This document shows, one piece after another, positions 8,482 through 29,414 of a stretch of DNA of 64,000 nucleotides (the first letter of the stretch is position 1; each line of letters starts with the position of its first letter). Origin of the DNA: Pseudomonadota bacterium. Its GTDB lineage: Bacteria > Pseudomonadota > Alphaproteobacteria > Rhizobiales > JAKPQE01. The notes below the pieces were generated by a model. It was not told the origin of the DNA and searched no databases. It saw nothing but the letters and a program-made list of their open reading frames with translations. Position numbers and translations under genes: made by a program. Location of the stretch: the NCBI GenBank assembly GCA_029572955.1, contig JAKPQE010000034.1, positions 1 to 64,000 of the forward strand, in the 5' to 3' direction.

Positions 8482-8705
8482 CCATTTGCAGTCTCGTGGT
8501 CTACGCCAGTGAGGCGAAGGCCGGCGCGGTCGAGGAGCAGCTGCTCAAGATCGAGGGAGTCGAGGTTCACGCGCGGGATCCGGCCGGCAAGCTGGTGGTC
8601 ACCATCGACCACCCGGACCGGGTTCACTGCAGCGAGTCGATCATGGAAATGAGCCGCATGCCGGGCGTCCTGAACGCGGCTCTTGTCTACGAATACTTCG
8701 AATGA
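8478..8705 (+). CDS. napD: NapD, NapA signal-peptide chaperone
   Basis: 75 residues, the usual NapD length, beginning [10 protein letters not shown] and ending in the family's short alpha/beta fold. NapD binds the twin-arginine signal peptide of NapA and holds back export until the cofactor is inserted. GGGAGGG precedes the start, which overlaps the napF stop (ATGA). napA follows at once. Confidence 0.93.
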
Positions 8706-8740
8706 CGACGGGATACAGAGAGATCAAGGAGGAACCATCA

Positions 8741-11296
8741 ATGACGCTCAATCGCCGAGACTTCATCAAAGCGAACGCCGTTGCCGCGGCCGCGGCGACT
8801 GCGGGCGTGACGTTGCCCGTATCGGTCGCCTCTGCCCAGGACGACACCGGCATCCGCTGGGACAAGACCGCCTGCCGGTTCTGCGGCACGGGCTGCAGCG
8901 TGCTCGTCGGCGTCAAGGACGGTCGCGTCGTGGCGACCCAGGGTGACCCCGATGCGCCGGTCAATCGTGGCCTGAACTGCATCAAGGGCTACTTCCTGAC
9001 CAAGATCATGTACGGCAAGGACCGCCTGACGAAGCCCCTGCTGCGCAAGAAAAACGGTGCCTTCGACAAGAATGGCGAGTTCGAGGAAGTGTCGTGGGAC
9101 GAGGCCTTCACGGTCATGTCCGACAAGTGGAAGGCCGCCCTCAAGGAGAAGGGTCCGTCGGCGGTCGCCATGTTCGGCTCCGGCCAGTGGACGGTGTGGG
9201 AAGGCTATGCCGGCGTGAAGCTGATGAAGGCCGGCATGCGGTCGAACAACCTCGACCCGAACGCCCGTCACTGCATGGCTTCGGCGGTGGTCGCGTTTGC
9301 CCGCGCCTTCGGCATCGACGAGCCGATGGGCTGCTATGACGACCTCGAGCATGCCGACGTGTTCGTGCTGTGGGGCGCCAACATGGCCGAGATGCACCCG
9401 ATCCTGTGGTCGCGTCTCACCAATACCCGCCTCACCAAGCCGGGCTGCGAGGTGCACGTGCTCTCGACCTACGAGAACCGCTGCTTCGAGCTGGCCGACA
9501 ACGGCATGGTGTTCACGCCGCAGACCGACCTGGCGATCCTCAACTACATCGCCAACTACATCATCCAGAACAAGGCCTACAACGAGGCCTTCATCAACGA
9601 CCACGTCAACTTCAAGCAGGCGGCGACGGACATCGGCTACGGCCTGCGTCCGAACCATCCGCTCGAAGTCGCGGCGGCCAACAACGGCTATCCGGATCCC
9701 AACGACAAGGAAAAGACCAAGGGCAATCCGGGCAAGATGGACCCGATCGACTTCGCGGCCTTCGCGAAGCTCGTCGAGCCCTACACCCTCGACTACACGT
9801 CCGAACTTTCCGGCGTGCCGAAGGATCAGCTCGAGCGCCTCGCCAAGGCCTATGCCGATCCCAACAAGAAGGTCTCGTCCTACTGGACGATGGGCTTCAA
9901 CCAGCACACCCGCGGTGTCTGGGTGAACAACAACCTCTACAACATCCACCTGCTGATGGGCAAAATCTCCGAGCCGGGCAACAGCCCGTTCTCGCTGACC
10001 GGCCAGCCTTCGGCTTGCGGCACCGCCCGCGAAGTCGGCACCTTCGCCCATCGTCTGCCGGCCGACATGGTGGTGATGAACGAGGGTCATCGGCAGTACG
10101 CCGAGAAGATCTGGAAGCTGCCGGAAGGCACCATCGGTCCGAAGCCCGGCTTCCACGCCGTGCTGATGCACCGCATGATGAAGGACGGCAAGCTCAACTG
10201 CTACTGGCAGCAGTGCACCAACAACATGCAGGCTGCCGCCAACATGAACGAAGAGTCCTATCCGGGCTGGCGTAACCCGGCCAACTTCGTCACCGTGTCG
10301 GATCCCTATCCGACGGTGTCGGCGATGGCGGCCGACCTGATCCTGCCGACGGCAATGTGGGCGGAGAAGGAAGGCGCGTACGGCAACGCCGAGCGGCGCA
10401 CGCAGTTCTGGCGCCAGCAGGTGCAGGCCCCGGGCGAGTCCCGGTCCGACGTCTGGCAGACCATGGAGTTCGCCAAGTACTTCACGGTCGAGGACGTGTG
10501 GCCGCCGGAGCAGATCGCCAAGATGCCGGAATATGCCGGCAAGACGCTCTTCGACGTGCTCTTCGCCAACGGTCAGGTCGACAAGTTCCCCTATGAGGGG
10601 AAGGTGATGGACGACCGCGGCAACGAATACGGCAACGACGAGTCGGCGCATTTCGGCTTCTACGTGCAGAAGGGCCTGTTCGAAGAGTACCGCCTGTTCA
10701 ACTCGGTCGCCGACATGCCCAAGATCGGCCACGAGATGGCGGAATTCGACGCCTACCACAAGGCGCGCGGCCTGCGCTGGCCGGTGATCGACGGCAAGGA
10801 GACGCTGTGGCGCTTCCGCGGCGGTTACGATCCGCACGTCCAGGGTGACCAGTCGGTGGTGAACTTCTACGGCAACAAGGACGGCCGTGCGAACATCATC
10901 TTCGCGCCCTACGAGCCCGCGGCCGAGCCGCCGGATGCCGAGTTCGACCTGTGGCTGTGCACCGGCCGCGTGCTCGAGCACTGGCATTCCGGTTCGATGA
11001 CCCGGCGCGTGCCGGAGCTCTATCGCGCCGTCCCGGACGCGGTGATCTTCATGCACCCGGACGATGCCAAGAAGCGCAAGCTGCGTGACGGTTCCGAGGT
11101 CAAGGTGTCGACCCGCCGCGGCGAGATCGTCACCCGCGTCGAGACCCGTGGCCGCAACCGGCCGCCGAAGGGCCTCGTCTTCGTGCCGTGGTTCGACGAA
11201 GGCCGCCTGGTCAACAAGCTGACGCTCGACCAGACCGACCCGATGTCGAAAGAGACCGATTACAAGAAGTGCGCCTGCAAGGTCGAGAAGGCCTGA
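8741..11296 (+). CDS. napA: NapA, catalytic subunit of periplasmic nitrate reductase
   Basis: 851 residues. A Tat signal (NRRDFIK, residues 4-10) is followed by the [4Fe-4S] motif C45-X2-C48-X3-C52-X27-C80 and the molybdenum ligand Cys near 178 in NARHCMASA, then the molybdopterin-guanine dinucleotide domains of the DMSO reductase superfamily. It reduces nitrate to nitrite in the periplasm, taking electrons from NapB. The start at 8741 follows AAGGAGG; an upstream in-frame ATG at 8702 would put extra residues before the Tat signal. It is the first large gene of a napFDAGHBC operon. Confidence 0.98.
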
Positions 11297-11315
11297 CGAC
11301 GCGCGACGCGACAAT

Positions 11316-11339
11316 CCGCCCGGCGCAAGCGCCGGGCGG
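11316..11339 (+). terminator. Stem-loop between napA and napG
   Basis: Perfect 10-bp GC stem (11316-11325 with 11330-11339) and a CAAG loop, without a following U-run. Likely an intra-operon hairpin that protects or separates the napFDA part of the message from napGHBC. Confidence 0.65.
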
Positions 11340-11386
11340 GCTCGGGGGGCGATCCCGACAACCGGACTATCGAAGGACTGCCGACA

Positions 11387-12322
11387 ATGGCCGCCGAAGA
11401 CCGTAACCCAGGAACACCGCTCGCCCGGCTCGCCAGCCGGCGCAAGTTCCTCGCCGACACGGGCAAGACCGTGGCCGGCGTCGGCATATTCGGCTTGGCG
11501 CTCGGTCTCTATTCCAGCAAGACCGACGCCCTGCCGGCGACGGCACTGCGCCCGCCCGGTGCTTTGCCCGAACCCGATTTCCTCGCAGCGTGCGTGCGCT
11601 GCGGCCTCTGCGTCCAGGATTGCCCCTATGGCATCCTGAAGCTCGCCGAACTCGGCAACGACGTCTCGACGGGTACGCCCTTTTTCACGGCGCGCACCGG
11701 TCCTTGCGAGATGTGCGAGGACATTCCCTGCGTGCCGGTCTGCCCGACCGGGGCACTCGACCCGAAGATGACCGACATCACCAAATCCCGCATGGGTCTT
11801 GCCGTGGTGGTCGACCAGGAATCCTGCATCGCCTTCCAGGGCCTGCGCTGCGAGGTGTGTTTCAACATCTGTCCGGTGCGCGGCAAGGCGATCACCCTCG
11901 AATATTCGGCGAACAAGCGCTCGGGCCACCACGCGCTGTTCGTGCCGGTCGTCTATTCGGCCGACTGCACCGGCTGCGGCCTGTGCGAGAAGGCCTGCAT
12001 CCTCGAGGAGGCGGCGATCAAGGTGCTGCCGATGCGGCTCGCCAAGGGTGAGCTCGGCCATCATTACCGGCTCGGCTGGGAACAGAAGAACCAAGCCGGC
12101 GAAGCACTCGTTACGCCGGACGTCGAGCACAAGTTCAATCTGCCGGAGGGCGTCCACTACGACTACAGCGGCCGCGGCCTCTATGTCGATCAACCGGGCG
12201 TGCCGCCACCGGCGCCGTCACCGGCGCCCGGACCGGGCGCGGCGGCCCCGGGCGGGTCCGACTTCCCGTTCTCGGCCAATCCGCTCGATTCCCTCAACAG
12301 CAAGATGCCGGGAGCGCAGTGA
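11387..12322 (+). CDS. napG: NapG, Tat-exported iron-sulfur subunit of quinol dehydrogenase
   Basis: 311 residues. A Tat-type signal (SRRKFLA near residue 18) is followed by four [4Fe-4S] cysteine clusters: CVRCGLCVQDCP, CEMCEDIPCVPVCP, CEVCFNICP and CTGCGLCEKAC. The last 35 residues are a Pro/Gly/Ala-rich tail not typical of the core family. NapG lies in the periplasm and, with membrane partner NapH, passes electrons from quinol to NapC/NapB. It overlaps napH (TGATG). Many alphaproteobacterial nap operons lack napGH and rely on NapC only. Confidence 0.93.
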   Translation: MAAEDRNPGTPLARLASRRKFLADTGKTVAGVGIFGLALGLYSSKTDALPATALRPPGALPEPDFLAACVRCGLCVQDCPYGILKLAELGNDVSTGTPFFTARTGPCEMCEDIPCVPVCPTGALDPKMTDITKSRMGLAVVVDQESCIAFQGLRCEVCFNICPVRGKAITLEYSANKRSGHHALFVPVVYSADCTGCGLCEKACILEEAAIKVLPMRLAKGELGHHYRLGWEQKNQAGEALVTPDVEHKFNLPEGVHYDYSGRGLYVDQPGVPPPAPSPAPGPGAAAPGGSDFPFSANPLDSLNSKMPGAQ

Positions 12323-13266
12323 TGGCTACGCCTCTCAAGGATCTCGGCAAGGACGCAATTGCCGAAAAGGGTTGGTTCGGGGCACACAAGTACCTGATCC
12401 TGCGCCGTATTTCGCAGATCGGCATCATCGCTCTGTTCCTACTCGGGCCGTGGGCCGGGATCTGGATCCTCAAGGGGAACCTGGTCTCCAGCCTCGTCTT
12501 CGACACCGTGCCGCTGACCGATCCGATGGTCTTCCTGCAGATGCTGGCGGCCGGCTTCGTCGGCGTCGGTTCGACGGCGATCATCGGCGCCGTCATCGTG
12601 GCGGTGTTCTATTACCTCGTCGGCGGCCGGGTCTATTGCTCGTGGGTCTGCCCGATCAACATCGTCACCGACGCGGCGCACTGGACGCGGCGCAAGCTCG
12701 ACATCCGTCAGTCGGCAAAGCTCAAGCCGTCGATCCGCTACTACATGCTGGCGCTGGTGCTCGTGGTCGCCTTCGCCACCGGTTCGCTCGCCTACGAGCT
12801 CGTCAACCCGGTGTCGATCGTCAATCGCGGCCTGATCTTCGGCATGGGCTTCGGCTGGGCGGCGCTCGCGGCGGTGTTCCTGTTCGACCTGTTCGTCGCG
12901 CGGCACGGCTGGTGCGGTCACATCTGCCCGATGGGCGCGTTCTACGGCCTGATCGGCGCCAAGAGCCAGCTGCGGGTGCGGGCCGACGGCCGGGCGAACT
13001 GCGACGACTGCATGGAATGCTACGAGGTGTGCCCCGAGGCGCAGGTCATTCCGCCGGCGGTCAAGAGTGCGCCGGACGGCAGTCCGGTCATCCTGTCCGG
13101 CGCCTGCACCAATTGCGGCCGCTGCATCGATATCTGTCCGAACTACGTCTACGCCTTTGGCCTCAGAGGCTTGGCGCTCGTCACGCCACCGACCATCGAC
13201 GTTCAGCCGGAAACCGGGGCGAACCCTCAGGGGGCGGTTACGGCAAAGGAAAAACAGATCGCGTGA
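12322..13266 (+). CDS. napH: NapH, membrane quinol dehydrogenase subunit
   Basis: 314 residues with four to five membrane helices, two membrane-side CX3CP motifs (CSWVCP and CGHICP) and two C-terminal ferredoxin clusters (CDDCMECYEVCP and CTNCGRCIDICP). This is the NapH architecture; NapH oxidises quinol and hands electrons to NapG. The ATG at 12322 overlaps the napG stop (TGATG) and follows GGGAG; a GTG three bases earlier is possible. NosH downstream is a paralogue. Confidence 0.94.
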   Translation: MATPLKDLGKDAIAEKGWFGAHKYLILRRISQIGIIALFLLGPWAGIWILKGNLVSSLVFDTVPLTDPMVFLQMLAAGFVGVGSTAIIGAVIVAVFYYLVGGRVYCSWVCPINIVTDAAHWTRRKLDIRQSAKLKPSIRYYMLALVLVVAFATGSLAYELVNPVSIVNRGLIFGMGFGWAALAAVFLFDLFVARHGWCGHICPMGAFYGLIGAKSQLRVRADGRANCDDCMECYEVCPEAQVIPPAVKSAPDGSPVILSGACTNCGRCIDICPNYVYAFGLRGLALVTPPTIDVQPETGANPQGAVTAKEKQIA

Positions 13267-13288
13267 GATCGAACATCAGGAGGATGAA

Positions 13289-13729
13289 ATGAGAGCCCTT
13301 TTCAAGACGACCCTGGCGGGTGTGTTCCTTGCGGCGACGATCGGCCTGTCCTTCGGCGTTTCCGCCCAGGTGTTGTCGCTGCGCGGCGACCGCCCGCTCG
13401 ATGCGGCGGACGACATGGCGCCGGATCGGCACAAGCAGGAAACGGCGAGCGGTGGCTTCGAGCGGTCCTGGAAGCTGCAGCCGCCGACCATCCCGCACAA
13501 CATCGACAATGATCGCATTACGCTGAAGGAAAACACCTGCCTGAACTGCCACAGCGAGGCGAACTTCAAGAAGGAAAAGGCGCCGAAGATCGGTGACAGC
13601 CACTTCATCGATCGCGAAGGCAACAAGCTTGCCGACATGAACCAGCGCCGGCACTTCTGCAGCCAGTGCCACGTGCCGCAGCTCGATGCGTCGCCGCTGG
13701 TCGAGAACACCTTCGCCGGAGCGAAGTGA
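13289..13729 (+). CDS. napB: NapB, dihaem cytochrome c subunit of nitrate reductase
   Basis: 146 residues: an N-terminal Sec signal peptide (cleavage near SAQ, residue 27) and two haem c sites, CLNCH and CSQCH, with the NapB-like HNIDN/RRHFCSQCHVPQ surroundings. NapB passes electrons from NapC or NapG to NapA in the periplasm. CAGGAGGATGAA gives a good ribosome site before the ATG at 13289. It lies downstream of napH rather than next to napA, as in napFDAGHBC operons. Confidence 0.95.
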   Translation: MRALFKTTLAGVFLAATIGLSFGVSAQVLSLRGDRPLDAADDMAPDRHKQETASGGFERSWKLQPPTIPHNIDNDRITLKENTCLNCHSEANFKKEKAPKIGDSHFIDREGNKLADMNQRRHFCSQCHVPQLDASPLVENTFAGAK

Positions 13730-13769
13730 ACGGCGATCACGGGGTCGCGTTCGCAACGGTCGACAATGT

Positions 13770-13792
13770 GCCGCCGGCGGTTGGACGGCGGC
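13770..13792 (+). terminator. Stem-loop between napB and napC
   Basis: 7-bp GC stem (GCCGCCG/CGGCGGC) with a 9-nt loop in the 107-base gap before napC. No U-run follows. Weaker than the napA-napG hairpin. Confidence 0.45.
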
Positions 13793-13836
13793 GGCAACGG
13801 CGTTCGGCCGGTCCGAACGCGAACGAGGATTGAAAC

Positions 13837-14439
13837 ATGAGTGAAGAGGCCAAGGCCGGGGGCAGGTCGCCCATGCGACTGATCGGTCTGATGTTCGTCG
13901 GTGCGGTCATCGGCGTGATGTTCTGGGGCGGTTTCAACTGGACCGTCGAGATGACCAATACCGAGACGTTCTGCATCTCCTGCCACGAGATGAAGGACAA
14001 TGTGTACGAGGAGTACACGGAGACCATTCACTACTACAACCGCTCCGGCGTGCGCGCGGTCTGCACCGACTGCCACGTGCCGAAGGAGTGGACGCACAAG
14101 ATGGTCCGCAAGATCCAGGCGTCGAACGAGCTCCTGCACAAGGTGCTCGGCACCATCGACACCCGCGAGAAGTTCCAGGCCAAGCGTCTCGAACTCGCCA
14201 GCCATGTCTGGGAGACGATGAAGCGGACCAATTCGCGGGAATGCCGCAACTGCCACGATGCCGAGTCGATGGATTTCGGCGTGCAGGAGTCGCGCAGCGC
14301 CGACCGTCACGAGGAAGGCTTCGACGAGGGAAAAACCTGCATCGATTGTCATCGCGGCATCGCCCACCAGCTTCCCGACGGCGCGGATGAGCGCTATCAA
14401 GAGATCGCGAAGAAATACGAGACGGCGAAGGGCAACTGA
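13837..14439 (+). CDS. napC: NapC, membrane-anchored tetrahaem quinol dehydrogenase
   Basis: 200 residues: one N-terminal membrane anchor (about 14-34) and four haem c sites, CISCH, CTDCH, CRNCH and CIDCH, as in the NapC/NirT family. It oxidises quinol and reduces NapB. Having both NapC and NapGH gives this operon two possible quinol-to-NapA routes. The ATG at 13837 has GAACGAGGATTG upstream. The next gene starts 28 bases on. Confidence 0.95.
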   Translation: MSEEAKAGGRSPMRLIGLMFVGAVIGVMFWGGFNWTVEMTNTETFCISCHEMKDNVYEEYTETIHYYNRSGVRAVCTDCHVPKEWTHKMVRKIQASNELLHKVLGTIDTREKFQAKRLELASHVWETMKRTNSRECRNCHDAESMDFGVQESRSADRHEEGFDEGKTCIDCHRGIAHQLPDGADERYQEIAKKYETAKGN

Positions 14440-14467: not shown

Positions 14468-15325
14468 ATGGCTCATCCGGATTTGCGACAGGGCAACAAC
14501 TGCCGCAGCGCTGCCAGTACGGGGGGCAAAGCGTGCCGCGGCGGCCGCAGGGGGGCGTTGGCCCGCCTGCGGCTCCTGCTTCTCGGCCTCGCGGTCACGG
14601 CTTTCGCCGCGCCCGCGACGGCCTGGAGGCTGCCGGAAGGCGACTGCAACGATCCAAAGCCGCTGACCCAGTTGCGCCATTGCTCGTTCGCCGGCAAGAA
14701 ACTTGCCGGCATCGACCTGCATGGCGCCGATCTGACGCGAGTCGATTTCGGCACGGCGGACCTGTCGGGCTGCGACCTCACCGGCGCGGTGCTGCGCGGG
14801 GCCAACCTGAAATGGGCCAACCTCTCGGGTTGCCACATGCACCGGTCCGATCTCACCGGCGCCGATCTCTTCCACACCAATCTGGCGCGGACCGATCTCG
14901 GCGGCGCCGATCTGGTGAAGACCTTCATGTTCGGAACCGAACTCGCCGAGGCCGATGCCGAAGACGCGGATTTCCGCGGTGCCTTCATGAAGGACGTGGC
15001 GATGGAGGGCGGCCGCTTCCGGCGGGCCGATTTCTCGGGCGTCTACATGCTGCGCGCGGTCATATACGGATCGGACCTGCGATGGGCCAAGCTCACCGGC
15101 GTCGATCTCACCGGCGCGAGCGCCGAGGAGGTCAATTTCTCGGGCGCCGACCTTTCGGGCGCCAAGCTGCGCGGGGCGACGCTGATCTCGACCCGTTTCA
15201 TCGGCGCCAATCTCGACGGTGCCGATCTTTCGAACGCGACCTTCGAGGCGACGGACTTCCGCGGCGCGATCAACCTGCCGGCCGCGCTCGCCGCACGGGT
15301 CGGCAAGACGGGGCGCGCGGACTGA
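14468..15325 (+). CDS. Exported pentapeptide-repeat protein
   Basis: 285 residues. A long, basic N-terminal region with a hydrophobic core (about 33-52) looks like a signal peptide. The remaining 230 residues consist of more than twenty A(D/N)LXX-type pentapeptides, predicted to fold as a right-handed quadrilateral beta-helix. Cysteines occur at CNDP, RHCSF, SGCDL and SGCHM. It is 28 bases behind napC on the same strand and may share its transcript. Its function is unknown; no catalytic motif is visible. The start is uncertain because of the long leader before the hydrophobic part. Confidence 0.8.
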   Translation: MAHPDLRQGNNCRSAASTGGKACRGGRRGALARLRLLLLGLAVTAFAAPATAWRLPEGDCNDPKPLTQLRHCSFAGKKLAGIDLHGADLTRVDFGTADLSGCDLTGAVLRGANLKWANLSGCHMHRSDLTGADLFHTNLARTDLGGADLVKTFMFGTELAEADAEDADFRGAFMKDVAMEGGRFRRADFSGVYMLRAVIYGSDLRWAKLTGVDLTGASAEEVNFSGADLSGAKLRGATLISTRFIGANLDGADLSNATFEATDFRGAINLPAALAARVGKTGRAD

Positions 15326-15469: not shown

Positions 15470-16201
15470 ATGGACCATCTTTCGCGCACCTTTGGCCATG
15501 ATGCGGTGGAACCGGCGGTCCGCCGCGCCCGCGTGCGGGCGGTGTTCGACGCGATCGCGGTGCGCTACGACCTGATGAACGACCTGATGAGCGGCTTCAT
15601 GCATCGCGGCTGGAAGGCGCGGTTCGTCGCCGGCGTGACCGCGCCGGTCGAGGGGCCGATCGTCGATCTCGCCGGCGGCACCGGCGATATCGCCGAGCGC
15701 CTGTTGCGGCGGATGCCCGGGCGCGAGGTGGCGATCGTCGATCCGAGCACGGCGATGCTCGGGGTCGCGGCGCGCCGGCTCGGCCCGAAGGTGCCGCTCG
15801 TCGCGGCCGAGGGCGAGGCGCTGCCGTTCACCGACGCCTCGCTCGGCGCCATGACCCTCGCCTTCGGTCTGCGCAACATGACCGAGCCCGGGCGGGCCAT
15901 GGCCGAGGCGTTCCGTGCGCTGAAGCCCGGCGCCCGCCTGCACATCCTCGAGTTCTCGCAGCCGGACCGCTGGTTCGAGTGGCCCTATCGGCTCTATTCG
16001 CGGATCACCATCCCGCTGCTCGGGGCGCTCGTTGCGCGCGATCGCAATGCCTATCGCTATCTCGTCGACTCGATCGAGATCTTCCCGAGTGCCGAGGACG
16101 TGTCGCAAACGCTCGCCGATGCCGGGTTTGTAGACGTCAGAGTGGAAAAGCTTATGTTCGGCGTCGCTGCGATTCACGTCGCCTCGAAGCCGGCGGAGTG
16201 A
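15470..16201 (+). CDS. ubiE: UbiE/MenG quinone C-methyltransferase
   Basis: 243 residues. The S-adenosylmethionine site DLAGGTGD lies at 66-73, and the family signatures FGLRNMTEP and LKPGARLHILEFS follow. Such enzymes methylate demethylmenaquinone to menaquinone and/or the ubiquinone precursor. It lies three bases before menA, so a menaquinone role (MenG) is favoured here, though the same enzyme often serves both quinones. The ATG at 15470 is preferred over a GTG at 15455; neither has a strong ribosome site. A further ubiE copy elsewhere in the genome would support specialisation of this one. Confidence 0.88.
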   Translation: MDHLSRTFGHDAVEPAVRRARVRAVFDAIAVRYDLMNDLMSGFMHRGWKARFVAGVTAPVEGPIVDLAGGTGDIAERLLRRMPGREVAIVDPSTAMLGVAARRLGPKVPLVAAEGEALPFTDASLGAMTLAFGLRNMTEPGRAMAEAFRALKPGARLHILEFSQPDRWFEWPYRLYSRITIPLLGALVARDRNAYRYLVDSIEIFPSAEDVSQTLADAGFVDVRVEKLMFGVAAIHVASKPAE

Positions 16202-16204
16202 GAA

Positions 16205-17164
16205 ATGGATCAGCGCGTTCGCGAAGGATATCTCAGCAGCCGTGCCGATGAGGCGCTCGGCACCCGCGCGGCAGGGCCGTCGCGGCTGGCGATCTGGTCG
16301 ATGGCGGCGCGGCCGAAGACGCTGCTCCTGTCGCTGAGCCCGGTGCTGATGGGCGGCTTCCTCGCCTTCCGCGACAGCGGGACGCTCGACGTCGCGGTGT
16401 TCCTGATGGCGCTCGTCGGCGCCATCGCCATCCAGATCGGCACCAACCTTTGGAACGACGCGCTCGACGGCGCCCGCGGGCACGACCGGGCCGGCCGTCT
16501 CGGGCCGCCGCGGGTGACCGCGCTCGGCCTTGCGCCGGCCGCATCGGTGCGCCGCGCCGCACTCGTCAGCTTCGCCATCGCGACGCTTGCCGGGCTCGGC
16601 CTCGCGATCGTCGGCGGATTGCCGATCATCGCCCTCGGCGTCGTCTCGATGCTGTGCGGCCTTGCCTATTCGGCCGGACCGCGGCCGATCTCCTACACAC
16701 CGTTCGGAGAGCTTTTCGTCATCGCGTTCTTCGGCGTCGCGGCGGTTGCCGGCACCTATTACCTGCAGACCGGCGCGGTCAGCGGCGACGCTCTCGCCGG
16801 CGGCATCGTCATGGGCTTTCCGGCGGCGGCGGTGCTGCTCGTCAACAATCATCGCGACCGGGCGAGCGATGCCCGGGCGGGGCGGCGCACGCTCGCCATT
16901 CTCGTCGGCGAGCGCGGCGCCCACAGAATCTATGCCGGGCTGCTGGGACTCGGTGTCGCAGGCACCCTCTCTCTTGTCTGGCCACATTGCCTGCTCGGTC
17001 TGGTTGCGTTCGTGCCGTCGATCGGTCTCGCCTCGCTTCTTGCGAGCCGAATCTTCCATGTTCCCGTTTCGACCGAGCTGAACAAGTATCTGGCGGGTAC
17101 GGGACTGGTACAATTTTTGATGGTCATATCCGTCGCATTGGCAACCTTGATCTGTAATCATTGA
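16205..17164 (+). CDS. menA: MenA, 1,4-dihydroxy-2-naphthoate polyprenyltransferase
   Basis: 319 residues, about eight membrane helices, UbiA superfamily. The two Asp-rich motifs fit MenA: NDALDGARGHD at 84-94 followed by RLGPPR, and NNHRDRASDARAGRRT at 214-229. MenA attaches the polyprenyl tail to dihydroxynaphthoate to make demethylmenaquinone in the membrane. Coupled to ubiE/menG, it gives the last two steps of menaquinone synthesis. Most alphaproteobacteria make only ubiquinone, so this pair between nap and nos is notable. The earlier menaquinone genes are not in the window. Confidence 0.88.
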   Translation: MDQRVREGYLSSRADEALGTRAAGPSRLAIWSMAARPKTLLLSLSPVLMGGFLAFRDSGTLDVAVFLMALVGAIAIQIGTNLWNDALDGARGHDRAGRLGPPRVTALGLAPAASVRRAALVSFAIATLAGLGLAIVGGLPIIALGVVSMLCGLAYSAGPRPISYTPFGELFVIAFFGVAAVAGTYYLQTGAVSGDALAGGIVMGFPAAAVLLVNNHRDRASDARAGRRTLAILVGERGAHRIYAGLLGLGVAGTLSLVWPHCLLGLVAFVPSIGLASLLASRIFHVPVSTELNKYLAGTGLVQFLMVISVALATLICNH

Positions 17165-17333: not shown

Positions 17334-17467
17334 GTGCGGTCCGGTTACGATGCACTAATCGGAATGCAGCAGTGGTGCCGTCGCGCCTCGAAAGGGCGTG
17401 GCTATGCCAGGGCTGGATGCCGGTTCGACGGACGGACCGGTCATCATCAGAAATAGGGGCACTTGTC

Positions 17468-19768
17468 ATGACAGGAACGTTGAAACGCCTGCTGACCTTC
17501 TCGGCAATCGCCGGGATGGGTCTCGCGTTCGTGGGCTCGGCTTTCGCGGCCGAAACCCTCGACCAAGTAATGAAGCGCCGCGGCCTCACCGAAAAGGACG
17601 TTCTCGCGGCGGCCAAGACCTACACCCCGACCGGTGGACGCGACGAGTTCATCGTCTTCTCGTCGGGCGGCCAGAGCGGCCAGGTCCTGGTTTACGGCAT
17701 CCCCTCGATGCGCATCCTGAAGTACATCGCCGTGTTCACGCCGGAGCCGTGGCAGGGCTATGGCTTCGACGATGAATCGAAGGCAGTGCTGGCCCAGGGC
17801 CGTATCGACGGCAAGGACATCAATTACGGCGACACCCACCATCCCGCCATCTCGGAAACCAATGGCGAGCTGGACGGCGAGTGGTTGTTCATCAACGACA
17901 AGGCCAACCCGCGTATCGCCGTCATCGATCTGAAGGACTTCGAGACCAAGCAGATCGTCGTCAATCCGATCATGAAGTCGGAACACGGCGGCGCCTTCGT
18001 CACCCCGAACACGGACTACGTGATCGAGGCGACGCAGTATGCCGGCCCGTTCACCAACGACTACGTGCCGCTCTCGGAGTTCAACGAGAAGTATCGCGGC
18101 GCGGTGACGTACTGGAAGTTCGATCGTGAGAAGGGCCGCATCGATGCGGCGAAGTCGTTCTCGGTCGAGCTGCCGCCGTACAGCCAGGACCTTTCGGACG
18201 CCGGCAAGCTGGATTCCGACGGCTGGTCGTTCACCAACTCCTTCTGCACCGAGCGTTACGTCGGTGGCATCGAGAGCGGTCGCCCGCCCTTCGAGGCCGG
18301 CTGCTCGCAGAAGGACACCGACTTCCTCCATGTCATCAACTGGAAGAAGGCGGCTGAACTCGTCGCGGCCGGCAAGGCCCAGAGGATCAACGATCACGAC
18401 GTGCTGTCGATCGAGACCGCCGTTGCCGAAGGTATCCTCTACCTGATCCCCGAGCCGAAGAGCCCGCACGGCGTCGACGTCTCCCCGGACGGCAAGTACA
18501 TCATCGTCGCCGGCAAGCTCGACACCCATGCGTCGGTCTACGAGTTCTCGAAGATCAAGGCGCTCATCGACGCCAAGGACTTCGCCGACAAGGATCCGTA
18601 CGGTATCCCCATCCTCGACCTGAAGAAGTCGCTGCACACCCAGGTGCAGGTGGGCCTCGGCCCGCTTCACAACCAGTACGACTCCAAGCCGTGCGTGGTC
18701 TATACGTCGATCTACGTCGACAGCCAGGTGACGAAGTGGGACTACTGCGAGGGCAAGGTCCTCGACAAGATCTCGGTCCACTACAACATCGGCCATCTGA
18801 TGAGCATGGAAGGCGAGTCGACGAAGCCCAAGGGCCATTACCTCGTCTCGCTGAACAAGCTGTCGATCGACCGCTTCAACCCGGTCGGCCCGCTGCATCC
18901 GCAGAACCATCAGCTCATCGACATCTCGAACGACAAGATGGAACTGCTCTACGACATGCCGCTGCCGCTCGGCGAGCCGCACTATGCGACCGCGATCGCG
19001 GCCGACAAGCTGCAGCCGAAGGTGCGTTACCAGACCGGTTGGGACAGCCGCACGGACCAGAAGTCCGAGTTCCGTACCCTGCCGGGCCGCGAGCGCATCG
19101 AGCGTACGGGTGACGGCACCGTCCACGTCTACGGCACTCTGATCCGGTCGCACATCACGCCGGAAATCATCGACGTCGAGGAAGGCGAGACCGTTTCGCT
19201 GCACTTCACCAACGTCGAGCGTGCCCAGGACGAGACCCACGGCTTTGCCCTTCGGGCTCACAACGTGAACCTGTCGGTCGAGCCGGGCAAGACCGTTTCG
19301 GCGACCTTCAAGGCCGAAAAGGCCGGCGTCTATCCGTACTACTGCACCGAGTTCTGCTCGGCGCTGCATCTCGAGATGCAGGGCTATCTGCTGATCCGTC
19401 CGAAGGGCGTGGCGGCGGAAGGTGCGGCGCTCAAGGAAGGCCAGGTGTATGCGGAAGAGGACTACACCAAGCAGGTGAAGACCAACACCGACACGCAGGC
19501 CGTCATCGACAGCGTCGTCGAATACATCACCCAGCGGAACTTCAAGGACTTCCCGACGGTCGTCGCGCTCGTCGAGGACGCCACCGACCAGCTCAACTTC
19601 GCGGCCGACGCCAAGAAGAAGATGGAAGACTTCGCTGGCGCCAAGGACTGGCAGAACGCGACCCTGTGGGCCCAGCAGTGGTTCCAGTATCAGGTCAAGG
19701 CGGCCGACATCGGCCTGCGTGCCAAGACCTACCTGGACCAGAACGGTGCCAAGGTGGTCGGCAAGTAA
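17468..19768 (+). CDS. nosZ: NosZ, clade II (atypical) nitrous oxide reductase
   Basis: 766 residues. The signal peptide (hydrophobic about 8-28, cleavage after AFA) has no twin arginine, so export is by Sec, a mark of clade II NosZ. The CuZ-binding beta-propeller shows GDTHHPAISET at about D122-H125; clade I enzymes have DXHHXH. The C-terminal cupredoxin carries CuA ligands C626, C630, H634 and M637. It reduces N2O to N2 in the periplasm. After the CuA domain comes a helical tail of about 110 residues without a haem motif. Start 17468 has AGGGGC upstream. The cluster lacks nosR and has nosB, G and H, which agrees with clade II. Confidence 0.97.
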   Translation: MTGTLKRLLTFSAIAGMGLAFVGSAFAAETLDQVMKRRGLTEKDVLAAAKTYTPTGGRDEFIVFSSGGQSGQVLVYGIPSMRILKYIAVFTPEPWQGYGFDDESKAVLAQGRIDGKDINYGDTHHPAISETNGELDGEWLFINDKANPRIAVIDLKDFETKQIVVNPIMKSEHGGAFVTPNTDYVIEATQYAGPFTNDYVPLSEFNEKYRGAVTYWKFDREKGRIDAAKSFSVELPPYSQDLSDAGKLDSDGWSFTNSFCTERYVGGIESGRPPFEAGCSQKDTDFLHVINWKKAAELVAAGKAQRINDHDVLSIETAVAEGILYLIPEPKSPHGVDVSPDGKYIIVAGKLDTHASVYEFSKIKALIDAKDFADKDPYGIPILDLKKSLHTQVQVGLGPLHNQYDSKPCVVYTSIYVDSQVTKWDYCEGKVLDKISVHYNIGHLMSMEGESTKPKGHYLVSLNKLSIDRFNPVGPLHPQNHQLIDISNDKMELLYDMPLPLGEPHYATAIAADKLQPKVRYQTGWDSRTDQKSEFRTLPGRERIERTGDGTVHVYGTLIRSHITPEIIDVEEGETVSLHFTNVERAQDETHGFALRAHNVNLSVEPGKTVSATFKAEKAGVYPYYCTEFCSALHLEMQGYLLIRPKGVAAEGAALKEGQVYAEEDYTKQVKTNTDTQAVIDSVVEYITQRNFKDFPTVVALVEDATDQLNFAADAKKKMEDFAGAKDWQNATLWAQQWFQYQVKAADIGLRAKTYLDQNGAKVVGK

Positions 19769-19790
19769 TTGCCGCTCCAGCGGAATGCAG

Positions 19791-19816
19791 GAAGGGGGCG
19801 GGCAACTGCCCCCTTC
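19791..19816 (+). terminator. Stem-loop after nosZ
   Basis: Perfect 9-bp stem GAAGGGGGC/GCCCCCTTC with an 8-nt loop, followed by TCTCCT. It lies just after the nosZ stop and before the cytochrome gene, so it probably attenuates read-through and keeps nosZ mRNA high. Confidence 0.65.
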
Positions 19817-19844
19817 TCTCCTAAAGCACGAAGGACCCGATGAA

Positions 19845-20579
19845 ATGACCGCAATCCGACGCTTTTCGAGCCTGGCTCTCGCCGCCGCAATCGGCCTCGC
19901 ACTGCCGACCATCGCCCTGGCGCAGGGTGCGCCCGCCGGCGAACCGGCCGCCGCCGCAACGGACGCCGCGCCCGCAAAGAAGGAAAAGCATCCGGGCGAA
20001 AAACTCTATCTCAGGAAGACCTGCATCGCCTGCCACGGCAAGGGCGGCGTGCTCTCCATTCAGGACTATCCCAATGTCGCCGGGCAGCAGGAAAAATACA
20101 TGCTGCGCCAGATCGCCGACATTCTCGAGGGCAAGCGCGTCGGCAGTCCCGATGCGACCGGCAACCCGCGCGCCGAGGGCATGAAAGGTGCTCTCGTGAC
20201 ACCGACGGGCGAGCGCCGCATCACCGACGACGAAATCAAGGAGATCGTCTCCTGGCTCGCCTCGCTGGCTCCGGCCTCGCCGAAGGCGCCCGAGACGCCG
20301 ATCGATCCGGCGCGCCTCGCCCAGGGTGCGGACGACTACAAGAAGGGCAAATGCCAGACCTGCCACGGTGTCGACGGCAAGAAGCCGACCTCGCCGCTCT
20401 ACCCGTTCATCGCGGGCCAGAAGGCGAGCTACATCACGACGCAGATCAAGGACATGCGCGACGGTTTGCGCAACAATGGCTCATCCAAGCTGATGTTGCC
20501 GTTCATCAAGAAGCTCGACGACGAGACGATCGGTCGGATCGCCGACTATCTCTCGCAGGTCGACCGTAACCAGCCCTGA
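19845..20579 (+). CDS. Dihaem c4-type cytochrome of the nos cluster (first)
   Basis: 244 residues: Sec signal (cleavage after ALA, about residue 24), then two cytochrome c domains with CIACH and CQTCH, each followed by family stretches (PNVAGQQEKYML, PFIAGQKASYITTQI). This is the c4 pattern of two fused monohaem domains. In Wolinella-type nos clusters two cytochromes (NosC1, NosC2) carry electrons from NosGH towards NosZ; these two genes probably have the same job, though here they lie directly behind nosZ and are dihaem. AAGGA precedes the ATG at 19845. Confidence 0.9.
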   Translation: MTAIRRFSSLALAAAIGLALPTIALAQGAPAGEPAAAATDAAPAKKEKHPGEKLYLRKTCIACHGKGGVLSIQDYPNVAGQQEKYMLRQIADILEGKRVGSPDATGNPRAEGMKGALVTPTGERRITDDEIKEIVSWLASLAPASPKAPETPIDPARLAQGADDYKKGKCQTCHGVDGKKPTSPLYPFIAGQKASYITTQIKDMRDGLRNNGSSKLMLPFIKKLDDETIGRIADYLSQVDRNQP

Positions 20580-20623: not shown

Positions 20624-21385
20624 ATGATCAAGAGCAGCAAGATTGCACTCCTCGCGGCGGCCGGCGCCATGGCGCTGACGATGTCGGCGGCCAAGGCCTG
20701 GAACGAGGGCGGCGGCGAGCAGGACGAAGCGACGGTGATGTACCAGACCTTCAAGGACAAGACGCCGGAAGAGATGGAAAAGGTCCGCGCCGACGGCCTC
20801 GCCGTCTACGAGGTCTGTTCGGCCTGCCACCTGCCGGAAGGCTGGGGCTCGACGGACGGCACGTTCCCGCAGATTGCCGGCCAGCATGCCGACGTGATCA
20901 TCAAGCAGCTCGCCGACATTCGCGCTCTCAACCGCGACAATCCGACGATGTACCCGTTCGCCCTGCCGAAGGAGATCGAGGCGGTGGCGCCGGAAGTCGG
21001 CGGTGGTCCTTACGCGATCGCGGCGGTCGCCTACTACATCCAGCAGCTCAAGATGAACCCGGAGCCGGGCGTTGGCGCCGGTGACGACCTCGAGCACGGC
21101 GCGCAGCTCTACAAGGACAACTGCGTGCGCTGCCATGGCGAGCAGGGTGAAGGCAACGACGCGAAGTACTTCCCGCGCATCCAGGGCCAGCACTACGAAT
21201 ACCTGCTGCGCCAGTACGTCTGGATCAAGGAAGGCAAGCGCCGCAACGCCAATCCGGACATGGTGGAGCAGATCAAGAACTTCACCGACAAGGATACCAA
21301 GGCGGTCCTCGACTACGTGTCGCGCCTGAAGGCGCCGGCCGATCTGGTCGCGCCGGTCGGCTACATCAACCCGGACTTCGATTGA
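20624..21385 (+). CDS. Dihaem c4-type cytochrome of the nos cluster (second)
   Basis: 253 residues: signal peptide ending near AKA (residue 25), then two haem c sites, CSACH and CVRCH, with c4-like FPQIAGQHADVIIKQL and FPRIQGQHYEYLLRQY stretches. It is a diverged relative of the preceding gene and is probably periplasmic. The two cytochromes likely form a relay from the NosGH quinol dehydrogenase to the CuA site of NosZ; the order of transfer is not visible. Confidence 0.9.
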   Translation: MIKSSKIALLAAAGAMALTMSAAKAWNEGGGEQDEATVMYQTFKDKTPEEMEKVRADGLAVYEVCSACHLPEGWGSTDGTFPQIAGQHADVIIKQLADIRALNRDNPTMYPFALPKEIEAVAPEVGGGPYAIAAVAYYIQQLKMNPEPGVGAGDDLEHGAQLYKDNCVRCHGEQGEGNDAKYFPRIQGQHYEYLLRQYVWIKEGKRRNANPDMVEQIKNFTDKDTKAVLDYVSRLKAPADLVAPVGYINPDFD

Positions 21386-21452: not shown

Positions 21453-22655
21453 ATGGTTCAAATGACAGCGAAATCGCAGACCAAGCGCGAGGCGGTGGTC
21501 GTCTTCCTGACGACAGCGGCCATCGCCCTCCTCGTTGCCCTCTATTTCGTGCCGACCTGGTGGGTGGCGCTGACGGCACCGAACTATCCGCCGGAGGCGT
21601 TTCCGGACGGCGTGCGCATCAACTTCCACATGAACGGCGTCTTCAACGGCTGCCGCAAGGTGGAGAAGGCCGAGATCGAGGAAGACGTGGTGCTCGATTG
21701 CGTCCACGAGATGGACACGATCAACCACTTCGTCGGCATGTATCCGATTGCCGCCGGCGGCGTCGTCGAGAAGGCCTATTCGCCGTTCCTGTTCACCCTG
21801 CTCGGGGTGATGCTCGTCGGCTTCATGATCAAGAATCCGAAGGCGCGCGTCGGCGTGATGGCGGTCGGGTTCGGCGTGACGGCGGTGTGGATGTACCTCA
21901 CCATGTTCGGCAAGGACGGCATCGACTATCAGAACCACGGCTATGTCGCGGCGATGGTCACCTCGCTCGACCAGACGGAGTTCGAGAAGGAAGCCGCCGA
22001 GGAAGAGAATCTCCATCCGATCGTCGCCGAGCTCAGGCGCGCCATGCGTGGCGACACCGGCCAGGCGACGGAAAAGAAGCCGATCTCGGTGGCGACCGAG
22101 AAAAGCAAGGAAGACAACATCGCCGCCCTCCGGTCGACCTTCGAGAACGACCAGAAGCGCAAGCCCTCGGGCGAGCAGCTCGCCTGGAACGGCAGCAATC
22201 TGCAGATCCTCGACTGGCACTACGAGAAGAGCCTCGGCCGCTGGTTCAACAATCCCGCCGAGATCGGCCCGATGGTGGCGACCACCAGCCTCGTCGCGCA
22301 CATCCTGTTCTGGGTGATCCTCGCGGGCATGGTGTTCCTGCTCGTCGCGGCCTGGCGTACCGGCAGCCTGCTCTACTGGCTGCTGGTCGTCGTCCCGATG
22401 CTGCTGCCGGTGTTCTTCATCATGGAATACTCGGCCTGGCTCTGGTGGTATGGCCACAGTCTCAACGAAATGGGCGCCTTCACGCTGAAGCCGTTCATGC
22501 CGACCGTGTTCGGTCAGGGCAAGGTGGCGCAGTTCGCCACGCATTCATACCCGAACATCGGCTTCGGCCTGATGGTGGCATCTTCGGTGCTGCTGGCGCT
22601 TGCCGCGCTCATTCGCCTGAAGTCGCTTCGGGCGGAGAGAAACGGCGAGGATTGA
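21453..22655 (+). CDS. nosB: NosB, membrane protein specific to clade II nos clusters
   Basis: 400 residues with an N-terminal membrane helix (about 16-36), a soluble stretch with two cysteines (NGCRKVEKAEI, VLDCVHEMD), two helices near 108-150, a hydrophilic loop, and three to four C-terminal helices (about 280-395). Size, topology and position match NosB, which occurs only with clade II NosZ. Its exact role is not established. ATG at 21453 (alternative 21462) has only a weak ribosome site. nosD follows after 11 bases. Confidence 0.82.
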   Translation: MVQMTAKSQTKREAVVVFLTTAAIALLVALYFVPTWWVALTAPNYPPEAFPDGVRINFHMNGVFNGCRKVEKAEIEEDVVLDCVHEMDTINHFVGMYPIAAGGVVEKAYSPFLFTLLGVMLVGFMIKNPKARVGVMAVGFGVTAVWMYLTMFGKDGIDYQNHGYVAAMVTSLDQTEFEKEAAEEENLHPIVAELRRAMRGDTGQATEKKPISVATEKSKEDNIAALRSTFENDQKRKPSGEQLAWNGSNLQILDWHYEKSLGRWFNNPAEIGPMVATTSLVAHILFWVILAGMVFLLVAAWRTGSLLYWLLVVVPMLLPVFFIMEYSAWLWWYGHSLNEMGAFTLKPFMPTVFGQGKVAQFATHSYPNIGFGLMVASSVLLALAALIRLKSLRAERNGED

Positions 22656-22666
22656 GGACGGTTCCA

Positions 22667-23989
22667 ATGCGTCCCCCCGGCGCACGGTTCCTGACAACGC
22701 TCACGGTCGCGGCCCTCGCTGCGGCCGCGGCCGTTGCCGCGCCGACCCCGACGGCCGAGATCCGCCAGCTCCAGCCAATCCTCGACGAGGCCGAGGAGAA
22801 CGCCGTCGTGCTGCTCGAGCCGGGCCTCTATGCCGGCCCGGTCGTCGTCACCAAGCCGATGCTGATCGACGGCGGCAACGAGGTCACCATCGACGGCGGC
22901 GGCGTCGGCACGGTGGTCACGCTGGAGACCGACGGCGCGACGATCCGGCGGGTGCGCATCGTCGGCTCGGGCGAGTCGCACAACGACATCGATGCCGGCG
23001 TGCGGGTCTCGGGCGATTCCAACAACGTCAAGGAACTGGTCATCGAGGACTGCCTGTTCGGCGTCGACCTGCAGCAGTCGGACAGCAATGTCGTGCGCCG
23101 CAACCGGATCACCTCCAAGGCGGACAGCGGCCTCGGCGTCAAGGGCGACGCGGTGCGGCTCTGGTACAGCCGCTACAACGTGGTCGAGGAGAATACGGTC
23201 TCCGGCTCGCGCGACATGGTCGTGTGGTACTCGGAAGACAACACGATCGCCCGCAACCGGATCAGCGGCGGCCGTTACGGCCTGCACTTCATGTATTCGA
23301 AGTACAACCTCGTCGAGGGCAATACGATCGATGGCAATTCGGTCGGCATCTTCCTCATGTATTCCGACGACATCGTGGTGCGCGGCAATCGCATGTTCAA
23401 GGCGCTCGGGCCGACCGGCGTCGGCCTCGGCCTCAAGGAGACGAGCGGCGTCGAGATCACCGACAACGAGATGCTCTACAACGCGACCGGCATCTATCTC
23501 GACGTCTCGCCGTTCCAGCCGGACACCACCAACAAGATCCTGAGGAACGAGATCGCGTTCAACTCGACCGGCGTGCTGTTCCTCAACGACTGGACCGGCA
23601 ATATCTTCGAGGAGAACCGGTTCGCCAACAACATCAAGCAGGTGTCGGTGAACGAGTTCGCCGGAGCGGCGCGCAACACCTGGAACAACAACTACTGGGA
23701 CGACTACGAGGGCTTCGACCGCGACAATGATGGCATCGGCGACAAGCCGCATACCATGATGGTCTATGCGGACCGGCTGTGGATGGACGTGCCGAACGCC
23801 TCGTTCTTCAAGGGGACGCCGCTTCTGGCGGCGCTCGACCTCCTGGAGCGGCTGGCACCGTTCACCGATCCGATCGTCATGCTCAAGGACGACAACCCGC
23901 ATGTGCGCGAGGATGTCGGCCCGCGCGACGACGCGGCCAAGGATGCCAAGAAGGAGCGCGTCAATCCGTTCGGGCTCGAAACCGACTGA
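22667..23989 (+). CDS. nosD: NosD, periplasmic copper-assembly beta-helix protein
   Basis: 440 residues: signal peptide to about residue 25, then a right-handed parallel beta-helix built of CASH/PbH1 repeats (for example VVEENTVSG, TIARNRISG, LVEGNTIDG, IVVRGNRMF) to about residue 330, with the YWDDYEGFDRDNDGIGD motif near 345-365. NosD works with the ABC transporter NosFY in maturing the CuZ site of NosZ. The last 30 residues are charged and linker-like. The ATG at 22667 follows GAGGACGG. Confidence 0.95.
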   Translation: MRPPGARFLTTLTVAALAAAAAVAAPTPTAEIRQLQPILDEAEENAVVLLEPGLYAGPVVVTKPMLIDGGNEVTIDGGGVGTVVTLETDGATIRRVRIVGSGESHNDIDAGVRVSGDSNNVKELVIEDCLFGVDLQQSDSNVVRRNRITSKADSGLGVKGDAVRLWYSRYNVVEENTVSGSRDMVVWYSEDNTIARNRISGGRYGLHFMYSKYNLVEGNTIDGNSVGIFLMYSDDIVVRGNRMFKALGPTGVGLGLKETSGVEITDNEMLYNATGIYLDVSPFQPDTTNKILRNEIAFNSTGVLFLNDWTGNIFEENRFANNIKQVSVNEFAGAARNTWNNNYWDDYEGFDRDNDGIGDKPHTMMVYADRLWMDVPNASFFKGTPLLAALDLLERLAPFTDPIVMLKDDNPHVREDVGPRDDAAKDAKKERVNPFGLETD

Positions 23990-24019
23990 CGCGGCTTCCC
24001 AGTCAAACGAGAAATTGTG

Positions 24020-24751
24020 ATGGCTAAGCAACTGACCCCCAGGCAACAGAAAGAGCGGCGCACGCTGCTGCTCTCGGCGCTGGCCGGCTCGGCGACGGTG
24101 GCGTTGTCGCTGATGGGCTACATCCCGGTGCTGAAGACGCTGGCGGCGCGGCTGCGCCCGCCGGGCGCGCTCGCCGAGAAGGCGTTCCTGGCCTCCTGCA
24201 TCAAGTGCGGCCAGTGCGTTCAGGTCTGCCCGGTCGAGGCGATCAAGCTCGCCGATGCCGGCGACGGCTTCGGTATCGGCGTTCCCTATATCGATGCGCG
24301 GGCGCAGGCCTGCGACTTCTCCTGCGACGCGGTGCAGTGCGTGCTCGCCTGTCCGACCGGAGCGCTCACCCACGAGATCGACAAGAAGGAACAGGTCCGC
24401 ATGGGCCTTGCCCGGCTCGACCGTCCGGACGTCTGCCTCGCCCGCCTCGGCCAGGGCTTCAAGGGCGTGGCGCGCGACATCGGCCTGCACCGCTATGTCG
24501 AGGTCGACCGCTGGAATCCGATCGGCATCGCCGATCACCCCTATGATCTGGAACTGTGCGATCTCTGCGTGCGGGAGTGCCCGATCGAGAATGCCATCTC
24601 CCTCGAACCGATGTCCGACGACCCGGCCGACAAGCGGCGCACGCCGGTCGTGCACGAGGCCTGCGTCGGCTGCGGCATGTGCGAGATGATCTGTCCGGTG
24701 GACCCGGCGGCCATCGTCATCGACGAACGCAAGGTGTGGGGGCAGGCATGA
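24020..24751 (+). CDS. nosG: NosG, NapG-type iron-sulfur protein
   Basis: 243 residues: an N-terminal hydrophobic segment (about 17-35, possibly signal or anchor; basic QQKERRTLL before it, not a clear Tat motif) and four [4Fe-4S] clusters: CIKCGQCVQVCP, CSCD..CVLACP-type, CDLCVRECP and CVGCGMCEMICP. It is a paralogue of NapG and pairs with NosH as a quinol dehydrogenase. In Epsilonproteobacteria NosGH is thought to feed electrons from menaquinol to N2O reduction. The ATG at 24020 is preferred over GTG 24017. It overlaps nosH (ATGA). Confidence 0.9.
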   Translation: MAKQLTPRQQKERRTLLLSALAGSATVALSLMGYIPVLKTLAARLRPPGALAEKAFLASCIKCGQCVQVCPVEAIKLADAGDGFGIGVPYIDARAQACDFSCDAVQCVLACPTGALTHEIDKKEQVRMGLARLDRPDVCLARLGQGFKGVARDIGLHRYVEVDRWNPIGIADHPYDLELCDLCVRECPIENAISLEPMSDDPADKRRTPVVHEACVGCGMCEMICPVDPAAIVIDERKVWGQA

Positions 24752-25719
24752 GGTACTGGCTCGATTCACTCCGCATGATGCTCGGCGCCGAGCCGCAACG
24801 GCTCGACTACACCGAGGCCGCGAAGGCCCAGCACGACTTCAAGGCCGAACCGGAGCAGCGCAAGCTGCGCGTCGCGGCGATCCGCGAGGAGCTCGCCCAC
24901 AAGCAGACGAGCTACAAGTGGCGCAAGTGGCGCTGGTCGTCGATCATCATCATCAATGTCCTGTTCGTGATTTCCTACTGGTTCGACGTGCAGCTCGTCG
25001 AGGGCGCGCTGACCGCGTCGCGTTTCATCGGCTTCCACATGGCCGATCTCAACGCCGCCCTGCAGGTGGTGCTGGCCCAGAAGGAAATCCTCATCAACCT
25101 CGTCATCGGCATCGTGACGGTCGGCTTCCTGTGGTGGCTCGCCGGCGGGCGCAGCTTCTGCTCGTGGGCGTGCCCGTACCATCTCGTCGCCGAATTCGCC
25201 GAGATGATCCACCTGAAGCTCGCCGACAAGAAAATCGTCGAGGACCATCCGCTCGACCGGCGCCTCAGGATCGTGCTCTGGATCGTCTTCGCGGTGCTCG
25301 CCTTCGTCACCGGCTATACGGTGTTCGAAACGATCTCGCCGGTCGGCATCCTGTCGCGCGCGCTGATCTATGGCGGCGGCCTCGCCCTCATCTGGGTGGC
25401 GGTGCTGCTCCTGATCGAGATCTTCTACATTCGCCGCTTCTGGTGCCGTTACATCTGCCCGATCGGGCTGACCTATGGCATCGTCGGCAGTGCCGGATCG
25501 CCGGTGCATGTGGAATACCTGCTCGAGAACTGCCTGCATGAAGGCGAGTGCCGAAAAGTTTGCCTTGTGCCGCATGTGCTCGAAATAACCAAGAAGGGGC
25601 GCGCGCACGACGTGAAGGTCGCGGTCGGCGCCGATTGCACACGCTGCGGCATGTGCATCGAGGCCTGCCCGACGGGCGCGCTCAACTTCAAGATCAAGGG
25701 GCTCGGAGACCTGCTGTGA
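24748..25719 (+). CDS. nosH: NosH, NapH-type membrane quinol dehydrogenase
   Basis: 323 residues with about four membrane helices, CX3CP motifs CSWACP and CRYICP, and a C-terminal cluster region (CLHEGECRKVC, CTRCGMCIEACP). The N-terminal 60 residues are a charged cytoplasmic extension not seen in NapH of this window. Together with NosG it should oxidise quinol; nearby menA suggests menaquinol. It overlaps nosG (ATGA) and nosF (GTGA), so nosGHF are tightly coupled. Confidence 0.9.
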   Translation: MRYWLDSLRMMLGAEPQRLDYTEAAKAQHDFKAEPEQRKLRVAAIREELAHKQTSYKWRKWRWSSIIIINVLFVISYWFDVQLVEGALTASRFIGFHMADLNAALQVVLAQKEILINLVIGIVTVGFLWWLAGGRSFCSWACPYHLVAEFAEMIHLKLADKKIVEDHPLDRRLRIVLWIVFAVLAFVTGYTVFETISPVGILSRALIYGGGLALIWVAVLLLIEIFYIRRFWCRYICPIGLTYGIVGSAGSPVHVEYLLENCLHEGECRKVCLVPHVLEITKKGRAHDVKVAVGADCTRCGMCIEACPTGALNFKIKGLGDLL

Positions 25720-29258: not shown

Positions 29259-29414
29259 GGTAACTCTCCGATCAATTCGCGTTGCCACATGATAGCGCGG
29301 CAATTGCGGCAATGCCTTGACTTTGGTTCAGGCCCGGGCCGGCGGCGCACCGGATAGTGCCCCTCCTTCGCCGGGGTCGGCAATCCTGCCAACGAACAGC
29401 AAGGGAGCGGTCTC

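Follow-up and report, generated by a model that had tools for sequence, protein, structure and literature searches.

Several bacteria retain only the last steps of menaquinone synthesis and depend on 1,4-dihydroxy-2-naphthoate (DHNA). Such DHNA use has been described for Porphyromonas pasteri (PMC9704088), and partial pathways that include MenA and need DHNA are known from Streptococcus agalactiae (PMC8376106) and Lactiplantibacillus plantarum (PMC10746273); among gut bacteria, quinone auxotrophs are common (PMC5738691). Like the locus described here, these partial pathways keep MenA, sometimes together with a methyltransferase, and lack the upstream steps. Their precursor comes from other bacteria and serves respiration or electron transfer, as we propose for the ubiE-menA pair of the window (the whole 64,000-nucleotide stretch of DNA analysed). 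No dedicated DHNA importer is named in the accessible text of these four papers. The hosts of the described partial pathways are Firmicutes and Bacteroidota without ubiquinone, whereas the window host makes ubiquinone. Unlike those systems, the window pair lies inside an alphaproteobacterial clade II nos island with a recurring transporter gene.

Wolinella succinogenes makes its own menaquinone. According to the accessible text of the citing paper, its NosG-C1-C2-H system shares a Sec-type NosZ, cytochromes c, NosD and NapGH-like proteins with the window, and menaquinol is the donor in its clade II nos electron transport (Hein et al., 2017, cited in PMC11102522). Unlike Wolinella, the window island holds the final menaquinone steps and a transporter, and the earlier steps are missing. 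A 2024 quinone survey of Pseudomonadota follows horizontally acquired MenF, MenD and MenB (PMC11707229) and, as far as its accessible text goes, shares with our case the acquisition, through gene transfer, of a low-potential quinone in a lineage that has ubiquinone; within the same text, no mention of orphan menA was found and a term search returned neither nitrous oxide nor nosZ. A literature search for papers connecting menA, ubiE or menaquinone to clade II nosZ in alphaproteobacteria, covering sources other than subscription journals, returned nothing relevant. Precursor-dependent menaquinone synthesis as such is known; its nos-island setting in alphaproteobacteria is unexpected, and within the sources covered the link of a menaquinone cassette to clade II Nos and a transporter appears unreported.

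Island layout and identity of the menaquinone genes

The sequence-only reading had placed ubiE/menG and menA between a nap and a nos operon that each encode a NapGH-type quinol dehydrogenase. Family matches on either side bear this placement out (Table 1), and since napA-G-H-B-C lies upstream and NapG-like and NapH-like genes are part of the nos operon, a NapGH-type quinol dehydrogenase is indeed encoded by both. The nos genes constitute a clade II cluster, in which a Sec-type NosZ is accompanied by NapGH-like and cytochrome c partners. The protein in the nosB position belongs to a family (family 6) conserved across 28 nos loci and had no match in an NCBIfam search. The pentapeptide-repeat protein has a conserved counterpart of 48% identity in the sister locus L005; it is foreign to known nap/nos operons. 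FNR/NnrR-like palindromes occur at 6568 and 7917 (both perfect) and at 17320 (one mismatch, directly before nosZ), the total number of FNR-like palindromes in the window being not above chance.

Table 1. Features of the nos island and its surroundings, in window coordinates
Feature	Coordinates	Strand	Family match and remarks
Crp/Fnr-type regulator	6629-7498		
napA-G-H-B-C periplasmic nitrate reductase operon	8702..14439	+	upstream neighbour
Pentapeptide-repeat protein	14468-15325	+	between napC and ubiE
ubiE/menG-family methyltransferase, island copy	15470..16201	+	TIGR01934
menA, orphan 1,4-dihydroxy-2-naphthoate polyprenyltransferase	16205..17164	+	TIGR00751
nosZ, clade II (Sec-type)	17372..19768	+	TIGR04246, 888.8 bits; 17372 is where the listed ORF starts; the true start is probably internal, near 17460
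Dihaem cytochrome c, nos operon	19719..20579	+	PF00034/PF13442; coding start further in than listed ORF
Second cytochrome c, nos operon	20624..21385	+	PF00034/PF13442
Conserved nos-island protein, nosB position (named from position only)	21453..22655	+	
nosD	22767..23989 (matched part of ORF 21560-23989)	+	TIGR04247, 378 bits, residues 404-783
NapG-like ferredoxin, nos operon (NosG-like)	24017..24751	+	NF007012, 149 bits; TIGR00397, 125 bits; both below cut-off
NapH-like membrane ferredoxin, nos operon (NosH-like)	24895..25719, approximate start	+	TIGR02163, 237 bits, above cut-off; match is residues 122-379 of ORF 24556-25719
Sco1	28641-29312	-	nos-island downstream part
SBF/BASS-family transporter	29415-30287	+	PF01758; far end of nos island
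SAM_alpha riboswitch	32314-32393	+	RF00521, 85.6 bits; ordinary for alphaproteobacteria

The window MenA exceeds the cut-off of the menA model TIGR00751 (151.7 versus 102.15 bits), and its best NCBIfam model is the DHNA polyprenyltransferase NF004751, at 235.5 bits and below the cut-off of 264. Both Asp-rich motifs reported from the sequence alone were confirmed (motif 1, NLWNDALDGARGHDR; motif 2, NNHRDRASD), and the residues N81, N84, D85, D88, D94, R98, N214, N215, R217, D218 and D222 are conserved in orphan MenAs as well as in those of menaquinone makers. A residue comparison of 77 MenA sequences, 59 from genomes without MenD and 18 MenD-positive (with four distant references; distant menaquinone makers came from annotated plasmids), revealed no conserved position with a different majority residue, and reading frames are intact and motifs fully conserved throughout the set. 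Orphan and MenD-positive sequences interleave in the MenA tree, in which the window MenA falls into a four-member clade with Rhodobium orientis (support 95/89), a species that has MenD and MenB. The phylogenetic check suggested by the sequence-only reading thus groups the window MenA with menaquinone makers. A different UbiA-type function of the orphan MenAs was considered and rejected, as they interleave with the MenAs of menaquinone makers and their conserved positions are unchanged. Judged by its sequence, the window protein is a true MenA; its family, its place in the tree and the unaltered conserved residues lead us to predict that it prenylates DHNA.

UBIAD1 prenylates a naphthoquinone obtained from outside. 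This eukaryotic enzyme, an animal MK-4 prenyltransferase, is the closest solved structure to the window MenA by sequence (PDB 8djk, 67 bits); unlike the window MenA, it acts on menadione and belongs to no respiratory operon.

The stop codon of the island ubiE (16201) is followed after three bases by the menA ATG, as had been noted before. Its start is an ATG at 15470, with an alternative GTG at 15455 in the ORF, and the product matches TIGR01934 with 218 bits (cut-off 158.35) and PF01209 with 196 bits. A second, ordinary UbiE of 296 bits is encoded on another contig of the same genome (C152). In a quick tree, menA-linked and chromosomal UbiEs are split by one branch with a support of 100, and the menA-linked side takes in the UbiEs adjoining menA in the MenD-positive Rhodoblastus acidophilus and Thiogranum. 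Two UbiEs were found in 12 of 12 tested MenD-negative genomes with the nos-island genes versus one in all eight controls without MenA. The island UbiE is therefore probably a dedicated MenG, converting demethylmenaquinone to menaquinone.

Upstream steps, genomic linkage and the transporter

The window genome (3.76 Mb, 98.7% complete, a draft of 182 contigs) encodes neither a complete classical (men) nor a complete futalosine (mqn) pathway. MqnA/D were not found in this genome, nor was MenB in a search at 1e-60, and there was no MenD match over the cut-off; the only match to the MenD model (65 bits versus a cut-off of 244) was rejected as an acetolactate synthase. The genome thus contains a partial pathway, in which MenA and the methyltransferase are kept and the upstream steps are missing. 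The presence of UbiA (TIGR01474, 338 bits) and of the second UbiE indicates that ubiquinone synthesis is present besides. Because MenD, MenB and MqnA/D are lacking and UbiA and a chromosomal UbiE are present, we regard ubiE-menA as the orphaned tail of a menaquinone pathway in a bacterium that makes ubiquinone. The menaquinol supply can consequently not be called self-contained, as the sequence-only reading had it, and its expectation that the earlier steps are encoded elsewhere also failed: they are absent from the whole genome, and most relatives that share the island lack them too, some of these having closed or near-closed genomes. That reading had named two outcomes that would count against it, a MenA grouping with other UbiA-type enzymes, or a lack of both menaquinone and an upstream pathway. 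The missing upstream pathway was observed, so that half of its refutation test went against it, but MenA groups with menaquinone makers.

MenA relatives were surveyed at 48 loci in species genomes, and 46 genomes were searched for the upstream steps. MenD was over the cut-off in 10 of these 46 MenA-bearing genomes, MenB in nine and MqnA/D in none; the 36 genomes without MenD include several with contigs of millions of bases. Since the same absence of MenD and MenB is seen in most relatives, it represents a pattern and not an assembly gap. At least 16 loci have MenA, mostly together with UbiE, inside a clade II nos island; the holders belong to Rhodobacteraceae, Bradyrhizobium, Methylocystaceae, Siculibacillus, Magnetospirillum and others, and gene order and strand vary between groups. 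A search of the plasmid collection for MenA with NosZ yielded no alphaproteobacterial clade II nos island.

A random class-wide sample of 387 genomes contained no other genome with clade II NosZ, and therefore the order of the window was sampled (297 genomes, 19 with clade II NosZ and 33 with MenA). MenA is encoded in 18 of the 19 genomes with clade II NosZ versus 15 of the 278 without (Fisher p=6e-19), the lone exception among the former being 88% complete. Counted by genus, it is present in 11 of 11 with clade II NosZ versus 3 of 111 without (p=2.6e-13). Four of the 18 genomes with both genes have MenD, and there menA and nosZ lie on different contigs; of the 14 MenD-negative genomes, 13 have menA in the nos island and one has it beside nap (p=3e-4). 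These 14 placements were counted after reading across split contigs, and one of the 13 nos-island cases (G722) is deduced from menA starting one contig and nosL/nosY ending another. The tie of the menaquinone genes to clade II N2O reduction is strongly supported. The sequence-only reading had tied them to nitrate and N2O reduction alike: the nos link is conserved, but the nap link is local, with nap, men and nos staying together only in the same family and a few others. In G681, one of the MenD-positive genomes, about 5 kb separate menD from clade II nosZ; a MenB-like gene of family 30 lies next to menD (L186:847-4000 and 7977), and menA is on another contig.

Furthermore, neighbourhood clustering revealed an SBF-family transporter that directly adjoins orphan menA in several lineages. 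The window copy scores 94.7 bits against PF01758 (cut-off 24.3); ORF 29357-30403, which overlaps it in the wrong frame, was rejected as the transporter. Rhodobacteraceae exhibit the same nosY-(Sco)-SBF arrangement as the window. A profile built from 16 menA-adjoining transporters matches sodium/bile acid transporters such as 3zux, and one strong copy (208 bits or more) was identified in 26 of 36 MenD-negative versus 2 of 10 MenD-positive MenA-bearing genomes; Azonexus has two. Both SBF-bearing MenD-positive genomes are Rhodobium, where roughly 6 kb lie between the SBF gene and menA. Outside the profile set, 15 of 17 assessable SBF genes lie in a nos island or beside menA/ubiE, placed mostly by sequence overlap, in G019 and G024 by coordinates only, and with two genomes left out because of contig breaks. 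Two MenD-negative genomes carry the SBF gene away from both menA and nos. As the gene is absent from 10 of the 36 MenD-negative MenA-bearing genomes, e.g. in Bradyrhizobium, Tropicimonas and Methylocystaceae, it is a usual and not a universal companion. Because the SBF family carries many organic anions, any substrate is a guess; from its genomic linkage, we propose the transporter as a putative importer of DHNA or a related naphthoate. Taken together, the linkage data point to precursor salvage rather than to another enzyme function.

Proposed precursor salvage and competing explanations

We propose that ubiE-menA, together with the SBF transporter, makes up a precursor-salvage cassette that finishes menaquinone and moves along with the clade II N2O reductase, the product itself being presumed to be menaquinone, and we assign this reading a probability of about 0.6. 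The host has UbiA and a chromosomal UbiE and makes ubiquinone itself; without MenD, MenB and MqnA/D it cannot make DHNA by either known route. Other microbes would release DHNA or a close analogue, which would enter via the SBF transporter and be prenylated by MenA using the cell's own polyprenyl diphosphate, and the island UbiE would methylate the resulting demethylmenaquinone to menaquinone. Judging from the linkage, the low-potential menaquinol could then feed clade II Nos through its NosGH-like dehydrogenase and cytochromes c, and perhaps NapGH as well. Relatives that make menaquinone de novo keep menA away from nosZ, and non-makers carry the cassette. As a counterpoint, clade II Nos in general might run on ubiquinol.

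Orphan menA persists across numerous families, also where genomes are closed or nearly so, which would be surprising if its holders were wholly dependent on neighbours. This persistence would be easier to understand if a third route to DHNA or another MenA substrate existed, through enzymes unrelated to men and mqn that are encoded outside the island, with the SBF transporter otherwise employed. We nevertheless consider such a route, which homology searches could miss, unlikely: no further conserved enzyme family of that kind was identified around menA, the recurring extra neighbour is a transporter, MenA residues are unchanged, and DHNA salvage has precedents.

MenA and UbiE may alternatively have been recruited for a different quinone made from an internal aromatic precursor, which would agree with the absence of the upstream men and mqn steps; in addition, the island UbiE scores 162 bits against MpqE, a methyl-plastoquinone methyltransferase model with a cut-off of 335, and so stays below that cut-off. 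This is quite improbable, given that orphan and MenD-positive MenAs interleave with no conserved position differing, that the island UbiE groups with menA-adjoining UbiEs of de novo menaquinone makers, and that G681 has men genes themselves beside nosZ. Complete de novo synthesis, the view of the sequence-only reading, would require that the other genes were missed in a fragmented assembly. With 182 contigs, and as men genes can share one operon and be lost together, this could happen in a single genome, but the 98.7% completeness, the absence of MenD, MenB and MqnA/D alike, and the same absence in 14 of the 18 genomes of the order with clade II NosZ and MenA and in 36 of the 46 MenA-bearing genomes make it very hard to sustain. 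Equally implausible is an ageing relic, in which menA-ubiE, left from a lost pathway, hitch-hikes with nos and is functionless today: eight genomes of genus g330 do keep menA beside an SBF gene without clade II nosZ, but intact reading frames, fully conserved motifs, near-perfect co-occurrence with clade II nosZ and a linkage kept despite changed order and strand all speak against it.

N2O is a strong greenhouse gas for which clade II reducers are considered an important sink. If the cassette does salvage DHNA, N2O removal by this bacterium and many relatives would hinge on a quinone precursor from neighbouring microbes. We see about even odds for the broader proposition that a large set of alphaproteobacteria need community-derived DHNA for their clade II N2O reduction and obtain it via a mobile transporter-MenA-MenG cassette, with the N2O sink set by cross-feeding. 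If true, pure-culture tests without DHNA would understate N2O reduction by the alphaproteobacterial members, and sink strength would depend on nearby menaquinone makers. SBF-ubiE-menA in a nos island would then be a gene signature that predicts nutritional dependence from sequence, the SBF transporter would be a candidate for the first recognised DHNA importer, and clade II Nos and menaquinol would be under joint selection even in bacteria that have ubiquinone.

Several loci deviate from the arrangement in the window. In G016 (L021, L255), an SBF gene and a UbiE gene lie beside nosZ on one contig and menA on another. In Aliiroseovarius crassostreae (L032), ubiE-menA adjoins a distant NosZ with 32% identity to that of the window, and the cassette may thus also accompany another Nos type. 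The eight g330 genomes (L173-L179, L188), several of them closed, lack MenD, and their menA-SBF pair could represent either a nos-island relic or a second use of the cassette; in most of these loci, a small conserved protein is encoded between menA and the SBF gene.
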